This document shows positions 6,568-13,696 of a DNA stretch of 64,000 nucleotides, in pieces (positions within the stretch are counted from its first letter, which is position 1; each line of letters starts with the position of its first letter). This DNA is from Buttiauxella gaviniae ATCC 51604 (lineage in GTDB: Bacteria; Pseudomonadota; Gammaproteobacteria; Enterobacterales; Enterobacteriaceae): the NCBI RefSeq assembly GCF_001654835.1, contig NZ_LXEP01000031.1:124001-188000 (forward strand). The letters are read 5' to 3'. The notes below the pieces were generated by a model. That model was not told the DNA's origin. It worked only from the letters and a program-made list of their open reading frames with translations, and made no database searches. A program made the position numbers and the translations under genes.

Positions 6568-6586
6568 CAGGTAGAGGAGAGTGCTT

Positions 6587-7294
6587 GTGAAAACGGCGCG
6601 CCATGCGGCAATAGTAGAACTCATACGACAACATGAAACCCTAACAACTGAAGATCTTGCCGAGCTATTAAAGGTCAGTAAAGAAACCATCCGCCGTGAT
6701 CTGAATGCACTACAGACGCAGGGGAAAATCATTCGCCAGCATGGGCGAGCTAAAAGCATCAAGCGCGACACTCATGACAGTGGAGACCCATTTAGCGCTC
6801 GCCTCAAAAGCCATTTTGCCAGCAAAGCCGACATTGCGCGCCAGACACTACCGTGGATTAGTGGTGGAATGACTATTGCGCTCGATGCGAGTTCAACATG
6901 TTGGTATCTGGCAAAACAACTCCCGGATATTGATATCACTGTTTTTACCAATAGTGTGCGTATTTGCCAGGAACTGGCAAAATGGGAAAATATACAGCTC
7001 ATTAGTTCCGGTGGCTTGCTTCAACGTAAATATGCTTGTTACGTCAATCCTGCAATTATTTCCCAAGTTAAAGAACTGGATATCGATCTGTTTCTTTTTT
7101 CTTGTGAGGGAGTTGATAAGGATGGCGTGCTATGGGATTCCAATACTTACAATGCTGAATTTAAATCATTACTCATGAAGCGCGCGGCGCAGTCTTTATT
7201 ACTTATCGACAAGAGTAAAATAAATAGAACCAGTGAAATAAAAATAGGCTGTGTGGAAGATGTTGTACTAGTTATTTCAAATCAAAATGCCTAG
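6587..7294 (+). CDS. fucR: L-fucose operon activator FucR (DeoR family)
   Basis: A 235-residue DeoR-family regulator, closely matching E. coli FucR. It has an N-terminal winged helix with the DeoR signature LKVSKETIRRDLNALQTQGK (about residues 22-42), then HGRAKSIKR. The C-terminal sugar-phosphate sensor domain contains ALDASSTCWYLAKQL and FSCEGVDKDG. The GTG at 6581 is in frame, but GTG at 6587 aligns with E. coli MKAAR and has AGAGGAGA six bases before it. FucR responds to fuculose-1-phosphate and activates fuc genes. Since fucP, fucI, fucK and functional fucU are missing here, it is an orphan unless fuc genes exist elsewhere. Confidence 0.92.
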   Translation: MKTARHAAIVELIRQHETLTTEDLAELLKVSKETIRRDLNALQTQGKIIRQHGRAKSIKRDTHDSGDPFSARLKSHFASKADIARQTLPWISGGMTIALDASSTCWYLAKQLPDIDITVFTNSVRICQELAKWENIQLISSGGLLQRKYACYVNPAIISQVKELDIDLFLFSCEGVDKDGVLWDSNTYNAEFKSLLMKRAAQSLLLIDKSKINRTSEIKIGCVEDVVLVISNQNA

Positions 7295-7948
7295 CACAAC
7301 CACGGGCTGTTAAGACAATTAATGAGATAATCCTACAAAAAAAGCGCAGCTCACCAGACCATGGGTTGTAAATTAATCTATTTTTACAATAAATTAATGC
7401 GAGCAACGTGAGTTGGCCTTTAAAACGCTATCTTCATATAAAATAAACATATGTAACAAACACTTACATCACTGTTCGTTTATTGTCCGCTTATTTATTC
7501 TATCGTATCTCTTCTCGCGTAATATTTAGAAGTAAATATTCGAATTTAATTTTCCATAATTAAAGACACCACGCGAAATGCGTTAACATTTCCTTAAAAC
7601 TTAATCATATAACTAAACAAATTGATAGGTTTTATCGATCTATTGTTGGCGAATGATCTATGAGACCTATTGATTAAATCTATCGAAATTAATTTATTGA
7701 TCGTTTATATCGATCTGTGTTTATATATTAAGCATGCTAATGACTGCCTGACTAACACTGCACTAACAAGCGCGGTTGCGTTGCATCATAAGCGGCAAAA
7801 TATAAGCATCTTTCCGGCAACACTAATTAATAAGAAAATCTGATGAATTAGAACTCATACCAAAAATTCAACATTTGGAAATATTCGGAATTTTTATAAA
7901 TATAGTTGTCAGTCAGGCAATAAATGTCCAAAAAAGAGTATTTTTGAG
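7295..7948. other. Long AT-rich leader region before the PTS-IIC/EAL gene
   Basis: 654 bases, strongly AT-rich, with no credible ORF. It contains one large imperfect palindrome (7625-7670, separate entry) and a second small one, GATCG-N7-CGATC, near 7699-7715. The length and repeats suggest a regulated and possibly H-NS-bound promoter for the downstream c-di-GMP gene. Confidence 0.5.
7625..7670. repeat. 16-bp inverted repeat in the upstream region of the IIC-EAL gene
   Basis: ATAGGTTTTATCGATC at 7625-7640 and GATCTATGAGACCTAT at 7655-7670 are inverted copies agreeing at 13 of 16 positions, separated by 14 bases. It has the size and symmetry of an operator for a dimer or pair of dimers. It is not followed by a T tract and is far from a gene end, so a terminator is unlikely. 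Confidence 0.45.
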
Positions 7949-10078
7949 ATGAGCACATGGTTTCAGAACACTTTTATTTATCAGCTTAATAACAGCAGGA
8001 TTTTGTTATTTAATAACCGAATTATAAAATCTATTGTTGCAAGCTCTTTAGCCATTGTTCCCTTTGCCATCATCCGCGCACTACTTCTCATTAGCTCGAT
8101 TATCTGTGATCAATTGGGGTGGGGGCGTTTTTCTGTACAGCTGTTCCAGCTACAAGAGACGCTTACAGACTTTATGCCAATCGCAATAAATGCCTTTATG
8201 GCTTTGCATTGGGCAATTCGTAATCGCTACTCAGTTATCCATTTTCTGACCATTAATTTATGTAGCTTGCTATTTATTAGCCGAGTTATAAGTAATGACA
8301 AGCTTTTCTTCTTTGATATCACTGTTCCTTTAGCATTGCTTTCCGGCATCACTGTCAATTTTTTGCTAGAAAAGGCCATCGCTTTGGTCGATTCGATTCA
8401 TTTCCTGAAAAGCAAAAGCCGGAAAACATCCGCTCTTTTCTTCTGTTCTGTACTCATTATCTCCTTTGCCACCTTGATTATTGGTGTGCTGGCCCATTCA
8501 CTATACCTTTTAGTTTTCCCAGTAATATCTCAAACGCTACTGCACTCTTACCCTGATAACTTCATCGATGGGTTGATTTATATTGTTCTACGCTGCATAC
8601 CGTGGTTCTTTGGTATTCATGGGTATTTTATTTGTGCCGATATTGATGCTGGTTTTATTTCCGAAATGAATAGCAATATTGCTGCCTGGCATGCAGGGCA
8701 AGCACAGCTAAACATCATTAGCCCTGTTTTTTATAATATCTGGTGCACGATGGGCGGTACAGGAAACACTCTGGGAATGCTGCTGTGTATACTGCTAAAT
8801 AAAAAATCTCCCCACCGGCATATGCTTGGCTTATCGCTTCCTCTGTCACTGTTTAACGTGAACGAACCCTTGATTTTTGGGTTGCCGATAGTCATGAACC
8901 CCTTGCTGATTATCCCCTTTGTTCTGGTGCCAGCTGTGTCCTATACGATAGCGTACACGGCAACTGTCTGGCATCTGGTGCCGCCGGTTTCTGAAGCGGT
9001 AAACTGGAGCATTCCACCTATTTTGAGCACCTGGCTAGCCACTGGGGGATCGGTCTGCGCCATTATACTGAATATCGTTATTATTGGCGTAAGCGCGGTT
9101 ATCTACACACCATTTGTCAGAAAATGGTCTATTAGCAAACTAAAAACCCCTGAGCTGAATTTATTTTTACCACCGACAAATTTAGACCTGGTTCCTGGGC
9201 ATACGCTTCAGTCCGAAGAAAAATCTTATCTGGATGCACTGAGCAAGGTGCAACATTTACAATCGAGTGGTCATTTCATTCTTTATTTTCAGCCTCAGGT
9301 ACGGATTTCCGACCGTCGAATTATTGGGGTAGAGGCATTAATCCGCCATCAGGGTGAAGACGGGGAAATTACGCCACCTATTTTCCTACAATACTATGAT
9401 CGCCTCAAAGCGATGGCAGATATAGATTTTTGGGTTATCGAGCAATCTGTTAATTATCTACATCATCATCTTCAAGAATTTAATGAAATGACTCTGTCGG
9501 TCAATATCTCGGCGCAGACACTGCTAGATAAGAGATTATTTAAAGTCATATCCCAAGTGCTGGATAAACCTTTGCCTCCAGGCTGGACTCTTGAGATGGA
9601 AATCACAGAGTCGCAAGCTGTTATCGACCCGGTCAATGTGGCCTCGGTGCTGACAAAATTAAAATCAATGGGGATTCGTATTGCTCTCGATGATTTTGGG
9701 GCGGGGTACTCAACACTGAATTATCTGACACGATATCCACTCGACAAGATAAAGCTTGATCGTTCACTTGTGCAGGGGCTAGCTGAAAATGGTGGGCTGC
9801 AGTTTTTAAAACAAGTAACCAGACTGTGCCGACTCACGCACTGCAATCTTGTTATTGAAGGTGTTGAAACTGAAGATGAGCTGCGCCAGGTTCTTATTGA
9901 AGGGATTGAAACAGACCAGGAACTTGCCCAGGTCTGTTCAGTTGGTATCGAACTGGCACAGGGGTTCCTTTTCTGGCGTCCATTACCAGTTGAAAAATTA
10001 TGCCAGGTCCTGAAAGAAAATCATCATTGCTCTAATAATATTTCAACCTATGAAAAGGAGCTGCAATTAACATCATGA
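7949..10078 (+). CDS. PTS IIC permease fused to EAL c-di-GMP phosphodiesterase
   Basis: A 709-residue two-part protein. Residues 1 to about 400 form a polytopic PTS IIC domain of the lactose/cellobiose type, shown by GGTGNTLGM and LSLFNVNEPLIFGLPIV, the family's substrate-site signature. Residues about 430-695 form an EAL domain with the expected catalytic set: EALIRH (Glu462), NISAQTL, EITESQ, DDFGAGYS (Asp581/582), KLDRSL, EGVET (Glu637) and QGFLFWRPLP. It should hydrolyse c-di-GMP, with the permease acting as transporter or sugar sensor. No IIA or IIB is encoded nearby, favouring a sensory role. The EGVET segment is tandemly duplicated (separate entry). The start ATG has only a weak ribosome site. 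Confidence 0.88.
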   Translation: MSTWFQNTFIYQLNNSRILLFNNRIIKSIVASSLAIVPFAIIRALLLISSIICDQLGWGRFSVQLFQLQETLTDFMPIAINAFMALHWAIRNRYSVIHFLTINLCSLLFISRVISNDKLFFFDITVPLALLSGITVNFLLEKAIALVDSIHFLKSKSRKTSALFFCSVLIISFATLIIGVLAHSLYLLVFPVISQTLLHSYPDNFIDGLIYIVLRCIPWFFGIHGYFICADIDAGFISEMNSNIAAWHAGQAQLNIISPVFYNIWCTMGGTGNTLGMLLCILLNKKSPHRHMLGLSLPLSLFNVNEPLIFGLPIVMNPLLIIPFVLVPAVSYTIAYTATVWHLVPPVSEAVNWSIPPILSTWLATGGSVCAIILNIVIIGVSAVIYTPFVRKWSISKLKTPELNLFLPPTNLDLVPGHTLQSEEKSYLDALSKVQHLQSSGHFILYFQPQVRISDRRIIGVEALIRHQGEDGEITPPIFLQYYDRLKAMADIDFWVIEQSVNYLHHHLQEFNEMTLSVNISAQTLLDKRLFKVISQVLDKPLPPGWTLEMEITESQAVIDPVNVASVLTKLKSMGIRIALDDFGAGYSTLNYLTRYPLDKIKLDRSLVQGLAENGGLQFLKQVTRLCRLTHCNLVIEGVETEDELRQVLIEGIETDQELAQVCSVGIELAQGFLFWRPLPVEKLCQVLKENHHCSNNISTYEKELQLTS
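9854..9937 (+). repeat. 42-bp in-frame tandem duplication inside the EAL domain
   Basis: Residues 636-649 (IEGVETEDELRQVL) and 650-663 (IEGIETDQELAQVC) are adjacent 14-residue copies, 9 of 14 identical. Removing one copy restores the usual spacing between EGVET and the QGF motif of EAL domains. The DNA copies have diverged mainly at third positions, so the duplication is not recent and its frame has been kept. Confidence 0.85.
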
Positions 10079-10130
10079 TGTTAAAGCGGGGCTTAATCTC
10101 ACACGGATGTTTTTTTGTACATATTGAAAG

Positions 10131-12356
10131 ATGGAAAGTTGTGTAATGCAAATAAGTACAGAAACCAGAAATACGACTAAATGCATGATTGAAGCTTGTT
10201 TCTTGTTGTTTCTGTTTCATTACGTTTTTAGTCTACTAATGAGTAGTGCTGAAGTAGGTGGATATGCTCTGACATTTTATGATCTCAGGCTACCATTGTT
10301 TACTGCGCTACTAGTTTTATATGGTGTCAGAGCCATGCCGGCACTCGGGCTGCTTTTTATCTACAGCTTAAACACGCAATCCGTATTGCAAAACCTCACT
10401 GTTTACTCACAGTTATTGGCCGCTTCAATCAGTTGCCTGATATATTTTATATCTGTTGGAAGCAAAGGTGCAGTTAGTTTCGGGCGGTACAAATTAACAT
10501 TTCATCGTATCGGTTGGTTGGTTGTTTTTAACTCTGTAGTGTTTGAGTTTGTCCATCAGTTAATGTTGTTTTTATTCCATTTTGATGAAGTTTTATATGG
10601 TGATTTCTTTAGCACCAAAAACTTGATTAACATTCAGTGGATGATGACATCTTGCCTTACTGGTGTACCATTCTGTTATCTTATTCTTAGATGTATCAGC
10701 AATACCGCATGGTGTTCGCGTTACCTTAATGAACAAAAGAAAATAATATTTTCAGGTTCGCGAGTAGTCTATCGGATAATATGGTTATGCTCTCTCATTG
10801 GTATCATGTATTGCTTACTATCTACTAAGCATATATTTTTATTATTTACAGGGTATGGTTTGTTATTGCTTCTCCCGATAATGGTCTGGGGAACAGTAAC
10901 TATTGGTCATTCAGTTATTGTTCCCATCTGGAGCGCTATTTTAATTCTGCTCGGATTCCACAGCGATGGTTATATACAATATAATTACGCCATCAGTGAA
11001 CTTGAAATCCTTGAACCTTTGGCAACCGCCTCTGCCACAATATTAGTTGTGTCCTTCTCTTTAGTTTTATCTGGAGTGCTGGTTTCAAGTAATCGCTCAT
11101 ATATAAAAAAGATAACCAGACTCATGCTAACGGAGTATTATACTGGCTTGCCGAATGTTTATGCGCTCAAGAGATCTCTTGTTGAATATCCAGGGGCAGG
11201 GCTCGCTTTAATTCACTGCCCTGAGCTTTGGTCTTTGACTCAAACGCATGGCCTTAGCATTAGATTTATGTTCGTTAAGTCATTGACCGCCTATCTTCTT
11301 CCTCATCTCCAGGATAATGAAGATATATATTATCAACCAGGTTACGGGCTTTATATACGACTGGGTACACCTGATAAAGAGCATATTCACAACATCTATT
11401 CTTTAGTTAAAGCATACCGTTTCTCGTACGGCAAAAATACATTTGGCATTAATTCTGGTCTGACTTATATGTTGAGCTTGCCAGGAAAATATAATTTATT
11501 GATGATTGTTGGAAAGTTGTCTGCTGTCGCCGCGGACTCTATAAATAGTGAAGTTCCGGTGATGGTGACTTGGGATGACAACGAATGTTTAACTGTGGCA
11601 AGCAATATAACGAGTAATGACAATATCAGGAGTGAGCTGCAAAGTGCTGTTGATAACCAGTCGTTTGTGCTTATGGCTCAACCTATAATTTCATCGAGTA
11701 CGGATTCATACTATCATGAAGTTCTGATCCGTATCAGAAACAAAAATGGAAAGCTGTTATATCCTGACTCTTTTCTACCTATTGCAGCGCAAGCAGGTAT
11801 CCTGGCTCAGTTAGATATGACTGTTATTGAACAAACATTCAGATTTATACAGTCACTTGATGAATCTAAATCTGAAAGTAAATTTAGTATTAATTTAGCC
11901 CCGCGGACGCTTCATCATATCTATTTTATTGACCATTTGACGGTGCTATTCAAGAAGTATGAAATATCACCGGACAGAATTATTTTTGAAATTGTCGAAA
12001 CAGACATTATTGATACTAAAGTAGCCGCTTTAAAGCTTGAAAAAATGCGCAGTCTTGGTTGCAAGATAGCCATTGATGACTTTGGTACCGGTTGCTCTAG
12101 CTATTCTCGCCTGGAAGAAATAGAAGCTGATATTCTTAAAATAGATGGTTCATTTATCCGCAAGATTCTTCATGATGACTTAAATCACTTTTTAGTTAGA
12201 TCTTTCTGCACCGTTGCTAAAATCAAGAAAATGCAGGTCGTTGCAGAATTTGTTGAAAATGAAGAGATCAGGCAAGAGCTAATAAGAATAGGTGTAGATT
12301 GGTTACAGGGATACCATACGGGTAAGCCTGTGCCGATTGAGGAAGTAATACTTTAA
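10131..12356 (+). CDS. Membrane-anchored protein with degenerate GGDEF and EAL domains
   Basis: A 741-residue protein. Residues 1 to about 325 hold eight to nine hydrophobic segments forming a MASE-like sensory membrane domain. A GGDEF-fold domain follows (LTEYYTGLPNVYALKRSL), but its signature is lost: PGYGL stands where GGDEF belongs, so no cyclase activity is expected. The C-terminal EAL domain (about 500-735) has EVL in place of EAL but keeps NLAPRTL, EIVETD, DDFGTG, LKIDGSF, AEFVENEE and QGYHTGKP, so it is probably an active phosphodiesterase. An ATG at 10146 with GGAAAG upstream is an alternative start. It lies 52 bases after the IIC-EAL gene, likely in one operon with it. Confidence 0.82.
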   Translation: MESCVMQISTETRNTTKCMIEACFLLFLFHYVFSLLMSSAEVGGYALTFYDLRLPLFTALLVLYGVRAMPALGLLFIYSLNTQSVLQNLTVYSQLLAASISCLIYFISVGSKGAVSFGRYKLTFHRIGWLVVFNSVVFEFVHQLMLFLFHFDEVLYGDFFSTKNLINIQWMMTSCLTGVPFCYLILRCISNTAWCSRYLNEQKKIIFSGSRVVYRIIWLCSLIGIMYCLLSTKHIFLLFTGYGLLLLLPIMVWGTVTIGHSVIVPIWSAILILLGFHSDGYIQYNYAISELEILEPLATASATILVVSFSLVLSGVLVSSNRSYIKKITRLMLTEYYTGLPNVYALKRSLVEYPGAGLALIHCPELWSLTQTHGLSIRFMFVKSLTAYLLPHLQDNEDIYYQPGYGLYIRLGTPDKEHIHNIYSLVKAYRFSYGKNTFGINSGLTYMLSLPGKYNLLMIVGKLSAVAADSINSEVPVMVTWDDNECLTVASNITSNDNIRSELQSAVDNQSFVLMAQPIISSSTDSYYHEVLIRIRNKNGKLLYPDSFLPIAAQAGILAQLDMTVIEQTFRFIQSLDESKSESKFSINLAPRTLHHIYFIDHLTVLFKKYEISPDRIIFEIVETDIIDTKVAALKLEKMRSLGCKIAIDDFGTGCSSYSRLEEIEADILKIDGSFIRKILHDDLNHFLVRSFCTVAKIKKMQVVAEFVENEEIRQELIRIGVDWLQGYHTGKPVPIEEVIL

Positions 12357-12391
12357 ATTAATCCAGAAGGTATTAATAGGGCACTTATGAT

Positions 12392-13003
12392 ATGAACAGT
12401 CGAACGGATGTCGCGCGCTCAGTAAAAGTAGTCGGTGAAGAGATAGAAAAATGTAAACATGCATTTTTTGCAGTTAGAAAAAAGGGGCAGCACGTAGAGC
12501 TCATTCAGGATAATCAGGTCGCATTCCTTAAATCTGGCGTTGTAACCATTCATCGTATTGAAGATGGGCTACTGACTAACTCTATTAAAGCGCCCGCAGT
12601 TATTGGGCTTGGGCATATACGTGATATTGGGCTGACACATTTCATTCAGTGTAAAAGTGAATGTTCTATGTGGATACTTGATTCGAATATTGTTTTTGAC
12701 TTATTTACAGAGAAAAACTTGTGGCAAGAAGCTTTCTTTATAATTAGAAGCTATTTATATATTTGCATGCCTAAAGGAAAACTAATTCATAAATCATCGG
12801 CCAGGGAAATAGTTATTGAACATTTGAAGGAAATTTGGGCTTTAGATGAACCAGAAAGATACACAACATCTGTGTACAATTTTATTCTATCCAGAAATAA
12901 TATATCGAGGAGTGCCGTTCAGAAGGTTGTAAGAGAGTTAGAAGACTCAGGAGATATAAAATTTTACCGCGGGAAATTGATTGAGTTGAATGAGATGGCT
13001 TGA
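12392..13003 (+). CDS. IprA/YaiV-type winged-helix regulator
   Basis: A 203-residue protein resembling E. coli YaiV and Salmonella IprA. It has an N-terminal cyclic-nucleotide-binding-like beta-roll (FLKSGVVTIHRIEDGLL, IKAPAVIGLG) and a C-terminal winged helix-turn-helix (ILSRNNISRSAVQKVVRELE). The beta-roll lacks the Arg-rich cAMP pocket of CRP. It lies 35 bases after the EAL gene on the same strand, so it may be co-transcribed with the two c-di-GMP genes and could regulate them, though this is inferred from position only. AT-rich codon use matches its upstream neighbours rather than the folD side. Confidence 0.75.
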   Translation: MNSRTDVARSVKVVGEEIEKCKHAFFAVRKKGQHVELIQDNQVAFLKSGVVTIHRIEDGLLTNSIKAPAVIGLGHIRDIGLTHFIQCKSECSMWILDSNIVFDLFTEKNLWQEAFFIIRSYLYICMPKGKLIHKSSAREIVIEHLKEIWALDEPERYTTSVYNFILSRNNISRSAVQKVVRELEDSGDIKFYRGKLIELNEMA

Positions 13004-13024
13004 TCTTACAACACGTCATCATTT

Positions 13025-13696
13025 CTATGATGGTTTACAACAAATAGTGGCATGATCCCACCATGGATTATGATTCAGGTCGGTGTAAATAATCGAGAAT
13101 CCCTGCTTGCTGATCTCTTCTTCCAGCAGTGTAAGAGGCTTTAAGGTTCTCCATGGCCGGCCATTCCTCATTAAATGATAATTATCGGCATCAAAATCTC
13201 GTAAATCTTCAGGTTTTTTCGGTTTCCCAGCCATAGTACTGATAACAACCGTACCTTCTGGTTTTATCAGACGTCTTATTTCTGCAAGACACAACTCACG
13301 CTGTGAACCAATAAGGCAATGCAAGCAACTTCCATCAAAAATAACATCATATGAATCTGCTTCCAGCTGCTTAAGATGGCAGACATCGCCTTGGGTAAAA
13401 TGCCCTTTAAGCCCAAGTGTCAAAAATCGCTCTATCGCCCACTCAATTGCAGTTTGTGAAATATCAACACCGGATACTTCGTAGCCACGCTCAGCCATAT
13501 ATTGAGAAGACATTGCACCATTTCCACAGCCTAATTCCAGAAATGAAGCTCCGGGGGAGGGGAGGATACTACGTTGTTTTAATTCTTGCAGAATGACAGC
13601 TAATTGTTGATGAGCTCGCTTATAACCTTCACCAGCCCACGCCTGCGCACCATTGTGCTTTAATAGTCGATATTGCTCTTCATAGATATTCATCAT
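13025..13696 (-). CDS. Class I SAM-dependent methyltransferase
   Basis: A 223-residue methyltransferase with the Rossmann SAM-binding signature FLELGCGNGAMS (motif I, about residues 52-63), the acidic residue ending motif II in VSGVDIS, and IFDGSCLHCL in the motif IV position. It belongs to the small-molecule methyltransferase superfamily; the substrate cannot be told. A GTG lies two codons upstream in frame, but ATG ATG at 13696/13693 after GGTGG is more likely. It converges with the IprA-like gene and stands between the c-di-GMP genes and argU. Confidence 0.8.
   Translation of the reverse strand: MMNIYEEQYRLLKHNGAQAWAGEGYKRAHQQLAVILQELKQRSILPSPGASFLELGCGNGAMSSQYMAERGYEVSGVDISQTAIEWAIERFLTLGLKGHFTQGDVCHLKQLEADSYDVIFDGSCLHCLIGSQRELCLAEIRRLIKPEGTVVISTMAGKPKKPEDLRDFDADNYHLMRNGRPWRTLKPLTLLEEEISKQGFSIIYTDLNHNPWWDHATICCKPS

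Follow-up and report, generated by a model that had tools for sequence, protein, structure and literature searches.

A permease-like IIC domain fused to an EAL phosphodiesterase in Buttiauxella gaviniae: a candidate ligand sensor of the cyclic di-GMP network

The window analyzed here, a stretch of 64,000 nucleotides from Buttiauxella gaviniae ATCC 51604 (contig NZ_LXEP01000031.1, positions 124,001 to 188,000), carries a gene that joins a IIC permease domain of the phosphotransferase system (PTS) to a complete EAL domain, the phosphodiesterase domain that hydrolyzes cyclic di-GMP (c-di-GMP). Related fusions keep the EAL catalytic positions and a pocket Glu of the permease, their IIC halves form a lineage separate from plain IICs, and many of their host genomes have no match to PTS_IIB. 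On balance we think it probable that the fusion is a ligand sensor derived from a permease, which controls EAL activity with no need for PTS phosphotransfer.

The fusion gene and its two domains

The frame at 7949-10078 (+) is uninterrupted for 709 codons, the matching frame on the reverse complement being rich in stops. The domain content described in the initial annotation, IIC plus a complete EAL in one frame, was borne out by Pfam, with PTS_EIIC at residues 60-328 (68.6 bits, cut-off 30.7) and EAL at residues 434-646 (199.3 bits, cut-off 31.3), and the two motifs quoted there, FNVNEPLIFGLPIV and GGTGNTLG, are both present in the protein. An assembly artefact, which the annotation had named as a possible refutation, was ruled out because five named Buttiauxella species keep the orthologous frame open, at 67-96% identity. 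The ratio of nonsynonymous to synonymous substitution rates (dN/dS) against B. brennerae was ~0.05 for the IIC and EAL domains alike, but dS was close to 2 and therefore saturated; for the comparisons with B. izardii and B. agrestis dS was mostly incomputable. No DNA match was found in E. coli.

A sequence search of the PDB with the fusion protein returned ChbC (3qnq) as the sole IIC match, and the lactose/cellobiose IIC family model TIGR00410 gave 176 bits, below its curated cut-off of 236. The AlphaFold model (mean predicted local distance difference test, 72.9; predicted template modelling score, 0.50) is too weak in its membrane part to show the geometry of the pocket or how the domains are placed and was used for fold matches only, although the list of PDB folds is dominated by EAL chains, so IIC folds besides the ChbC type were barely tested. 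The outer limits of the IIC domain (residues ~17-399) were placed by eye from the helices of the predicted structure. Regarding the EAL half, what we take to be the catalytic set is complete in the window protein (E462, N519, E551, D581, D582, K602, E637 and Q671), and these eight positions are invariant in 71/71 aligned fusions.

Host genomes, pocket conservation and descent of the IIC half

PTS_IIB was absent from 21 of the 52 fusion-bearing genomes surveyed, and in 19 of these 21 the fusion was the sole EIIC. The first sample comprised 23 genomes chosen for spread from 45 fusion loci; PTS_IIB was found in 9 of them, lac-type IIA in 6 and glucose-type IIB in 8, while the 14 without PTS_IIB were also devoid of lac-type IIA and glucose-type IIB, the only EIIC match in each being a frame of the fusion's length. 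Single absences in this sample may be gaps, because it includes drafts and metagenome-assembled genomes of no stated completeness. The second sample, rated 99-100% complete, comprised all 29 fusion genomes of the order and phylum samples described below, with that of the window excluded; seven had no PTS_IIB, and an EIIC search made in eleven of the 29 found the fusion to be the sole EIIC in five of those seven. One Vibrio genome may be shared by both samples.

The genome of the window contains four IIC-EAL fusions, each with both Pfam domains, together with ten PTS_IIB (PF02302) and three lac-type PTS_IIA (PF02255) matches. Six of the ten IIBs lie within ~3 kb of a plain IIC; on the contig of the window the closest one precedes the fusion by 19 kb and sits beside its own IIC, and the contigs that carry the other three fusions yielded no PTS_IIB. 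Neither PTS_IIB nor lac-type PTS_IIA, the two families covered by this search, was detected in the window, thus the absence of nearby IIA and IIB partners claimed in the initial annotation holds for them, and the linked IIB and lac-type IIA genes expected of a lactose/cellobiose IIC transporter are missing at the fusion. A reading of the third copy as broken by two reported stops was rejected, as a 689-residue open frame reads through it; the stops probably lie where the alignment overran the ends of this copy. One further IIC-EAL gene of this genome adjoins a HAMP-GGDEF-EAL gene and two genes for periplasmic binding-protein-like products, both below family cut-offs (L138:1433-7673), and another copy is located between rstA and rstB, within a two-component operon (L137:2984-7762).

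The architecture is commoner than the initial annotation implied, with four copies in this genome alone. In the survey it suggested, 21 of 295 genomes sampled from the order matched at E up to 1e-60. The architecture is not unique: IIC-EAL fusions were found in Vibrionaceae, beta-proteobacteria, Pseudomonas, Tritonibacter and Acetoanaerobium. In the phylum sample 24/398 genomes matched at 1e-70, six of them through the EAL half only, which were not counted, leaving 18 genomes. Within the family the fusion is carried by the genome of the window and two others of the same genus, with no match at E up to 1e-60 among the 20 listed genomes of other genera. The fusion of Tritonibacter (Alphaproteobacteria) sits on a plasmid. 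Acetoanaerobium belongs to the Clostridia; the A. noterae record bearing the fusion (L135) is filed as a 2.63 Mb plasmid and is probably a chromosome.

To compare the pocket, 77 fusion loci were fetched. L037 was dropped for want of a single long frame, L065, L066 and L085 because no frame passed the filter although their frames are open, and L025 and L038 as short or split, L051 being a repeat of the query; the resulting 71 rows include the query and near-copies, and the extra fusion loci of the phylum sample lie outside them. The pocket residues of ChbC are His250 and Glu334, whose chain positions in 3qnq were counted from the sequence alignment. The window protein retains both counterparts, His224 and Glu306. 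Glu306 is kept in 70/71 fusions, the fourth Buttiauxella copy (L054) having Asp, while at position 224 His is found in 55 rows and Asn in the other 16; the 73-row set used for the tree also contains 16 Asn, and two changes at this position are needed on it. Plain IICs have both residues in 19/19. Much of the IIC sequence diverges strongly among fusions, and its best conserved 20-residue stretch is the pocket motif at residues 301-320 (mean column entropy 0.83, compared with 0.99 at 581-600 in the EAL core).

On the tree built from IIC halves, a single branch with support 100/99 separated 54 fusions (the 71 rows minus 21 near-copies, plus four further fusions) from 19 plain IICs, two having been dropped, one as short and one as a near-copy. 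The same split was recovered with support 96/85 after adding the fusions of Acetoanaerobium, Tritonibacter and genomes G569 and G589, those of Acetoanaerobium and G569 being the nearest to plain IICs in the enlarged tree. Because the tree has no known root and contains long branches, it does not prove a single origin of the fusion.

A ligand sensor and its rivals

An IIC without IIB is incapable of phosphorylation-coupled transport, so the retention of pocket motifs and of the EAL active site despite the missing IIB fits a permease turned ligand sensor. The predicted protein would be a membrane enzyme that hydrolyzes c-di-GMP and senses through a retired sugar permease: its IIC domain would bind a sugar-like ligand, presumably a carbohydrate, in the former substrate pocket, movement of its substrate domain may be passed through the C-terminal helix and the linker to the EAL domain, and hydrolysis of c-di-GMP would change in response, PTS phosphotransfer being unnecessary. 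Dimerization through the IIC domain may take part, and the ligand could either raise or lower the activity. The initial annotation had proposed a receptor rather than a transporter; this is supported for the family by the 21/52 genomes without PTS_IIB, whereas it may or may not hold for the window protein, with ten PTS_IIB matches in its genome and both His224 and Glu306 kept.

Several observations weigh against a phosphotransfer-independent sensor. PTS_IIB is carried by 31/52 fusion genomes, further EIICs occur in two of the seven second-sample genomes that lack PTS_IIB (G005 and G010), and the absence counts cover PTS_IIB, with other IIB families, EI and HPr outside the search. A basic residue (Lys or Arg) that precedes the pocket Glu by 12 positions is present in 19/19 plain IICs compared with 3/54 fusions, but this loss was picked post hoc by scanning all IIC columns and is therefore a lead and no test; moreover, two of the four fusions added later, those of Acetoanaerobium and G569, retain the basic residue, and both branch beside the plain IICs. 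The window protein itself keeps His224 in a genome with several IIBs, where it might transport with the help of a IIB in trans; a PTS-linked role is conceivable in PTS-rich Buttiauxella, and a 14-residue duplication in its EAL domain could damage or alter the activity. The duplication was found in 8/71 rows, all from the Buttiauxella orthologue group, and is probably the reason why the Pfam match ends at residue 646. Either copy of the duplicated EGVE segment might take the strand position.

A broader proposal, which we hold tentatively and at slightly less than an even chance, is that a whole lineage of PTS permeases, ancient and widely spread, was converted to c-di-GMP receptors outside the phosphotransferase system, serving as the sole EIIC of whole genomes, with one branch in which the pocket His to Asn change would mark a non-transporting sensor.

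Among the alternatives, the fusion could report the state of the PTS, with the phosphorylated IIB of another sugar system docking on the IIC domain and EAL activity tracking PTS flux. A review classes PTS_EIIC with phosphoreceiver domains (PMC8846402), and Vibrio cholerae PdeS is controlled by EIIA-Glc (PMC6877527). The IIB phosphodonor that such an EIIC would use has ten PTS_IIB candidates in the genome of the window but none in 21/52 fusion genomes, and the near-pocket basic residue common to all 19 plain IICs is gone from 51/54 fusions; we regard this reading as unlikely. The IIC domain could instead be a membrane anchor that merely holds and dimerizes the EAL domain while sensing nothing, as its wide divergence and the loss of the pocket His in some fusions would allow; a bare anchor would not need a conserved pocket motif, the best kept stretch of the IIC half, and is disfavored as distinctly improbable. 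Finally, a working transporter, which either uses a IIB in trans or acts as a phosphorylation-independent facilitator and has the EAL domain as local controller, would suit the retained His224 and Glu306 and the IIBs of this genome, but we give it very little credence given that no PTS_IIB or lac-type IIA is linked to the fusion there and that the fusion is the sole EIIC, with PTS_IIB absent, in 19 genomes.

The locus and the fusion among known systems

Table 1. Coordinates of the fusion, its parts and the adjoining genes in the window.
Feature	Positions	Strand	Basis
FucR-like DeoR regulator, upstream	6581..7294	+	L-fucose operon activator model, 408.8 bits (cut-off 259)
IIC-EAL fusion gene, 709 aa	7949..10078	+	Open frame, Pfam domains, orthologues
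PTS IIC membrane domain, ~residues 17-399 (Pfam PTS_EIIC 60-328; lacE-type 129-399)	7997..9145	+	
GIHG motif region, residues 221-226; His224 ~ chain position 250 of ChbC 3qnq	8609..8626	+	Alignment
NVNE motif, residues 303-306; Glu306 ~ chain position 334 of ChbC 3qnq	8855..8866	+	Alignment
Linker, residues 400-433, low confidence, then helix 418-440 leading into EAL	9146..9247	+	Predicted structure
EAL domain, residues 434-684	9248..10000	+	Pfam, catalytic positions, fold match
14-residue tandem duplication after the catalytic EGVE motif, residues 637-650 and 651-664	9857..9940	+	
Second EAL protein, 741 aa, 52 bp 3' of the fusion by listed start	10131..12356	+	Open reading frame list, Pfam
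Regulator with winged helix HTH_46, 35 bp 3' of the second EAL gene	12392..13003	+	

The fusion and the second EAL gene probably form one operon, and the short spacing (52 bp, 35 bp) suggests that it extends to the HTH_46 regulator gene. This regulator is IprA-like, yet far under the IprA cut-off (46.9 vs 359 bits). Pfam found EAL alone in the second protein, whereas its B. agrestis counterpart has MASE1 too. Any link between the FucR-like gene and the fusion is putative; in B. massiliensis (L002:794-5343) the genes fucI, fucK and fucR precede the fusion, while in the window just the fucR-like gene adjoins. A protoglobin-GGDEF protein with the DosC middle domain is encoded at 677-2080, ~6 kb upstream of the fusion. 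Nothing other than short repeats was found across 7290-7960, and promoter-like sites across 7290-13100 were at chance level (18 found vs a mean of 20.0).

Open reading frames around 44 fusion loci were grouped into clusters, of which the 40 largest were inspected. Most are confined to one genus or near kin, and no partner gene common to the main lineages was seen among them, the domain scan of neighbors not being systematic. Exceptions include a cluster of three Buttiauxella loci and one Photobacterium locus, whose B. agrestis member is MHYT-GGDEF, and another that overlaps the fusion itself. None of the eight neighbor proteins scanned for domains, six of them from cluster families other than the fusion or EAL neighbors, was a IIA or IIB. 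The B. agrestis fusion is adjoined by an MHYT-GGDEF gene and a MASE1-EAL gene, and the Vibrio metoecus locus carries a LuxR-type response regulator.

The choice of bacteria between swimming and biofilm hinges on c-di-GMP, and many membrane sensors of this network have no known ligand. Here the structural relative of the sensor has a known substrate pocket, thus candidate ligands are directly testable, such as the beta-linked disaccharides cellobiose and chitobiose, and genomes without PTS_IIB offer a clean background, where interference from PTS transport would not be expected. As a guess from gene order, with the response regulator at the V. metoecus locus as a guide, VC1211 of V. cholerae might be an IIC-EAL fusion. 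In one screen, VC1211 is a predicted EAL protein negative for binding (PMC4624772). Our literature searches, which did not cover the supplementary tables of the review cited above, found no experiment on an IIC-EAL protein, and none is described in the available portions of PMC6528568, PMC10100716, PMC12469244 and PMC11878068; two V. cholerae EAL genes, which may or may not be related to the fusion family, are altered in biofilm variants reported in the last of these.

The domain pair was already known: PTS_EIIC appears in the 2022 review among the rare "receiver" domains that c-di-GMP proteins carry (PMC8846402), and what is added here is the PTS_IIB census, the conservation of EAL domain and pocket, and the split of the IIC tree. 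As far as that review tells, the proteins it lists have the same domain pair; it takes EIIC for a phosphoreceiver, whereas the PTS_IIB-less genomes favor a ligand sensor. With ChbC and the lactose/cellobiose PTS IICs (3qnq) the fusion shares the IIC fold and the GxHG and NxNE pocket motifs, and it differs from them in its C-terminal EAL domain, the lack of linked PTS_IIB or lac-type IIA, the sub-cut-off family score and the separate branch. The PdeS-EIIA(Glc) pair of V. cholerae likewise ties sugars to an EAL phosphodiesterase, but there a separate EIIA binds the enzyme (PMC6877527), while here a permease domain is built into it. As in sensors of the MASE1 and MHYT types, both of which adjoin the B. 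agrestis fusion, a membrane domain precedes the catalytic one; unlike theirs, that of the fusion is a recognizable permease with a known substrate pocket.
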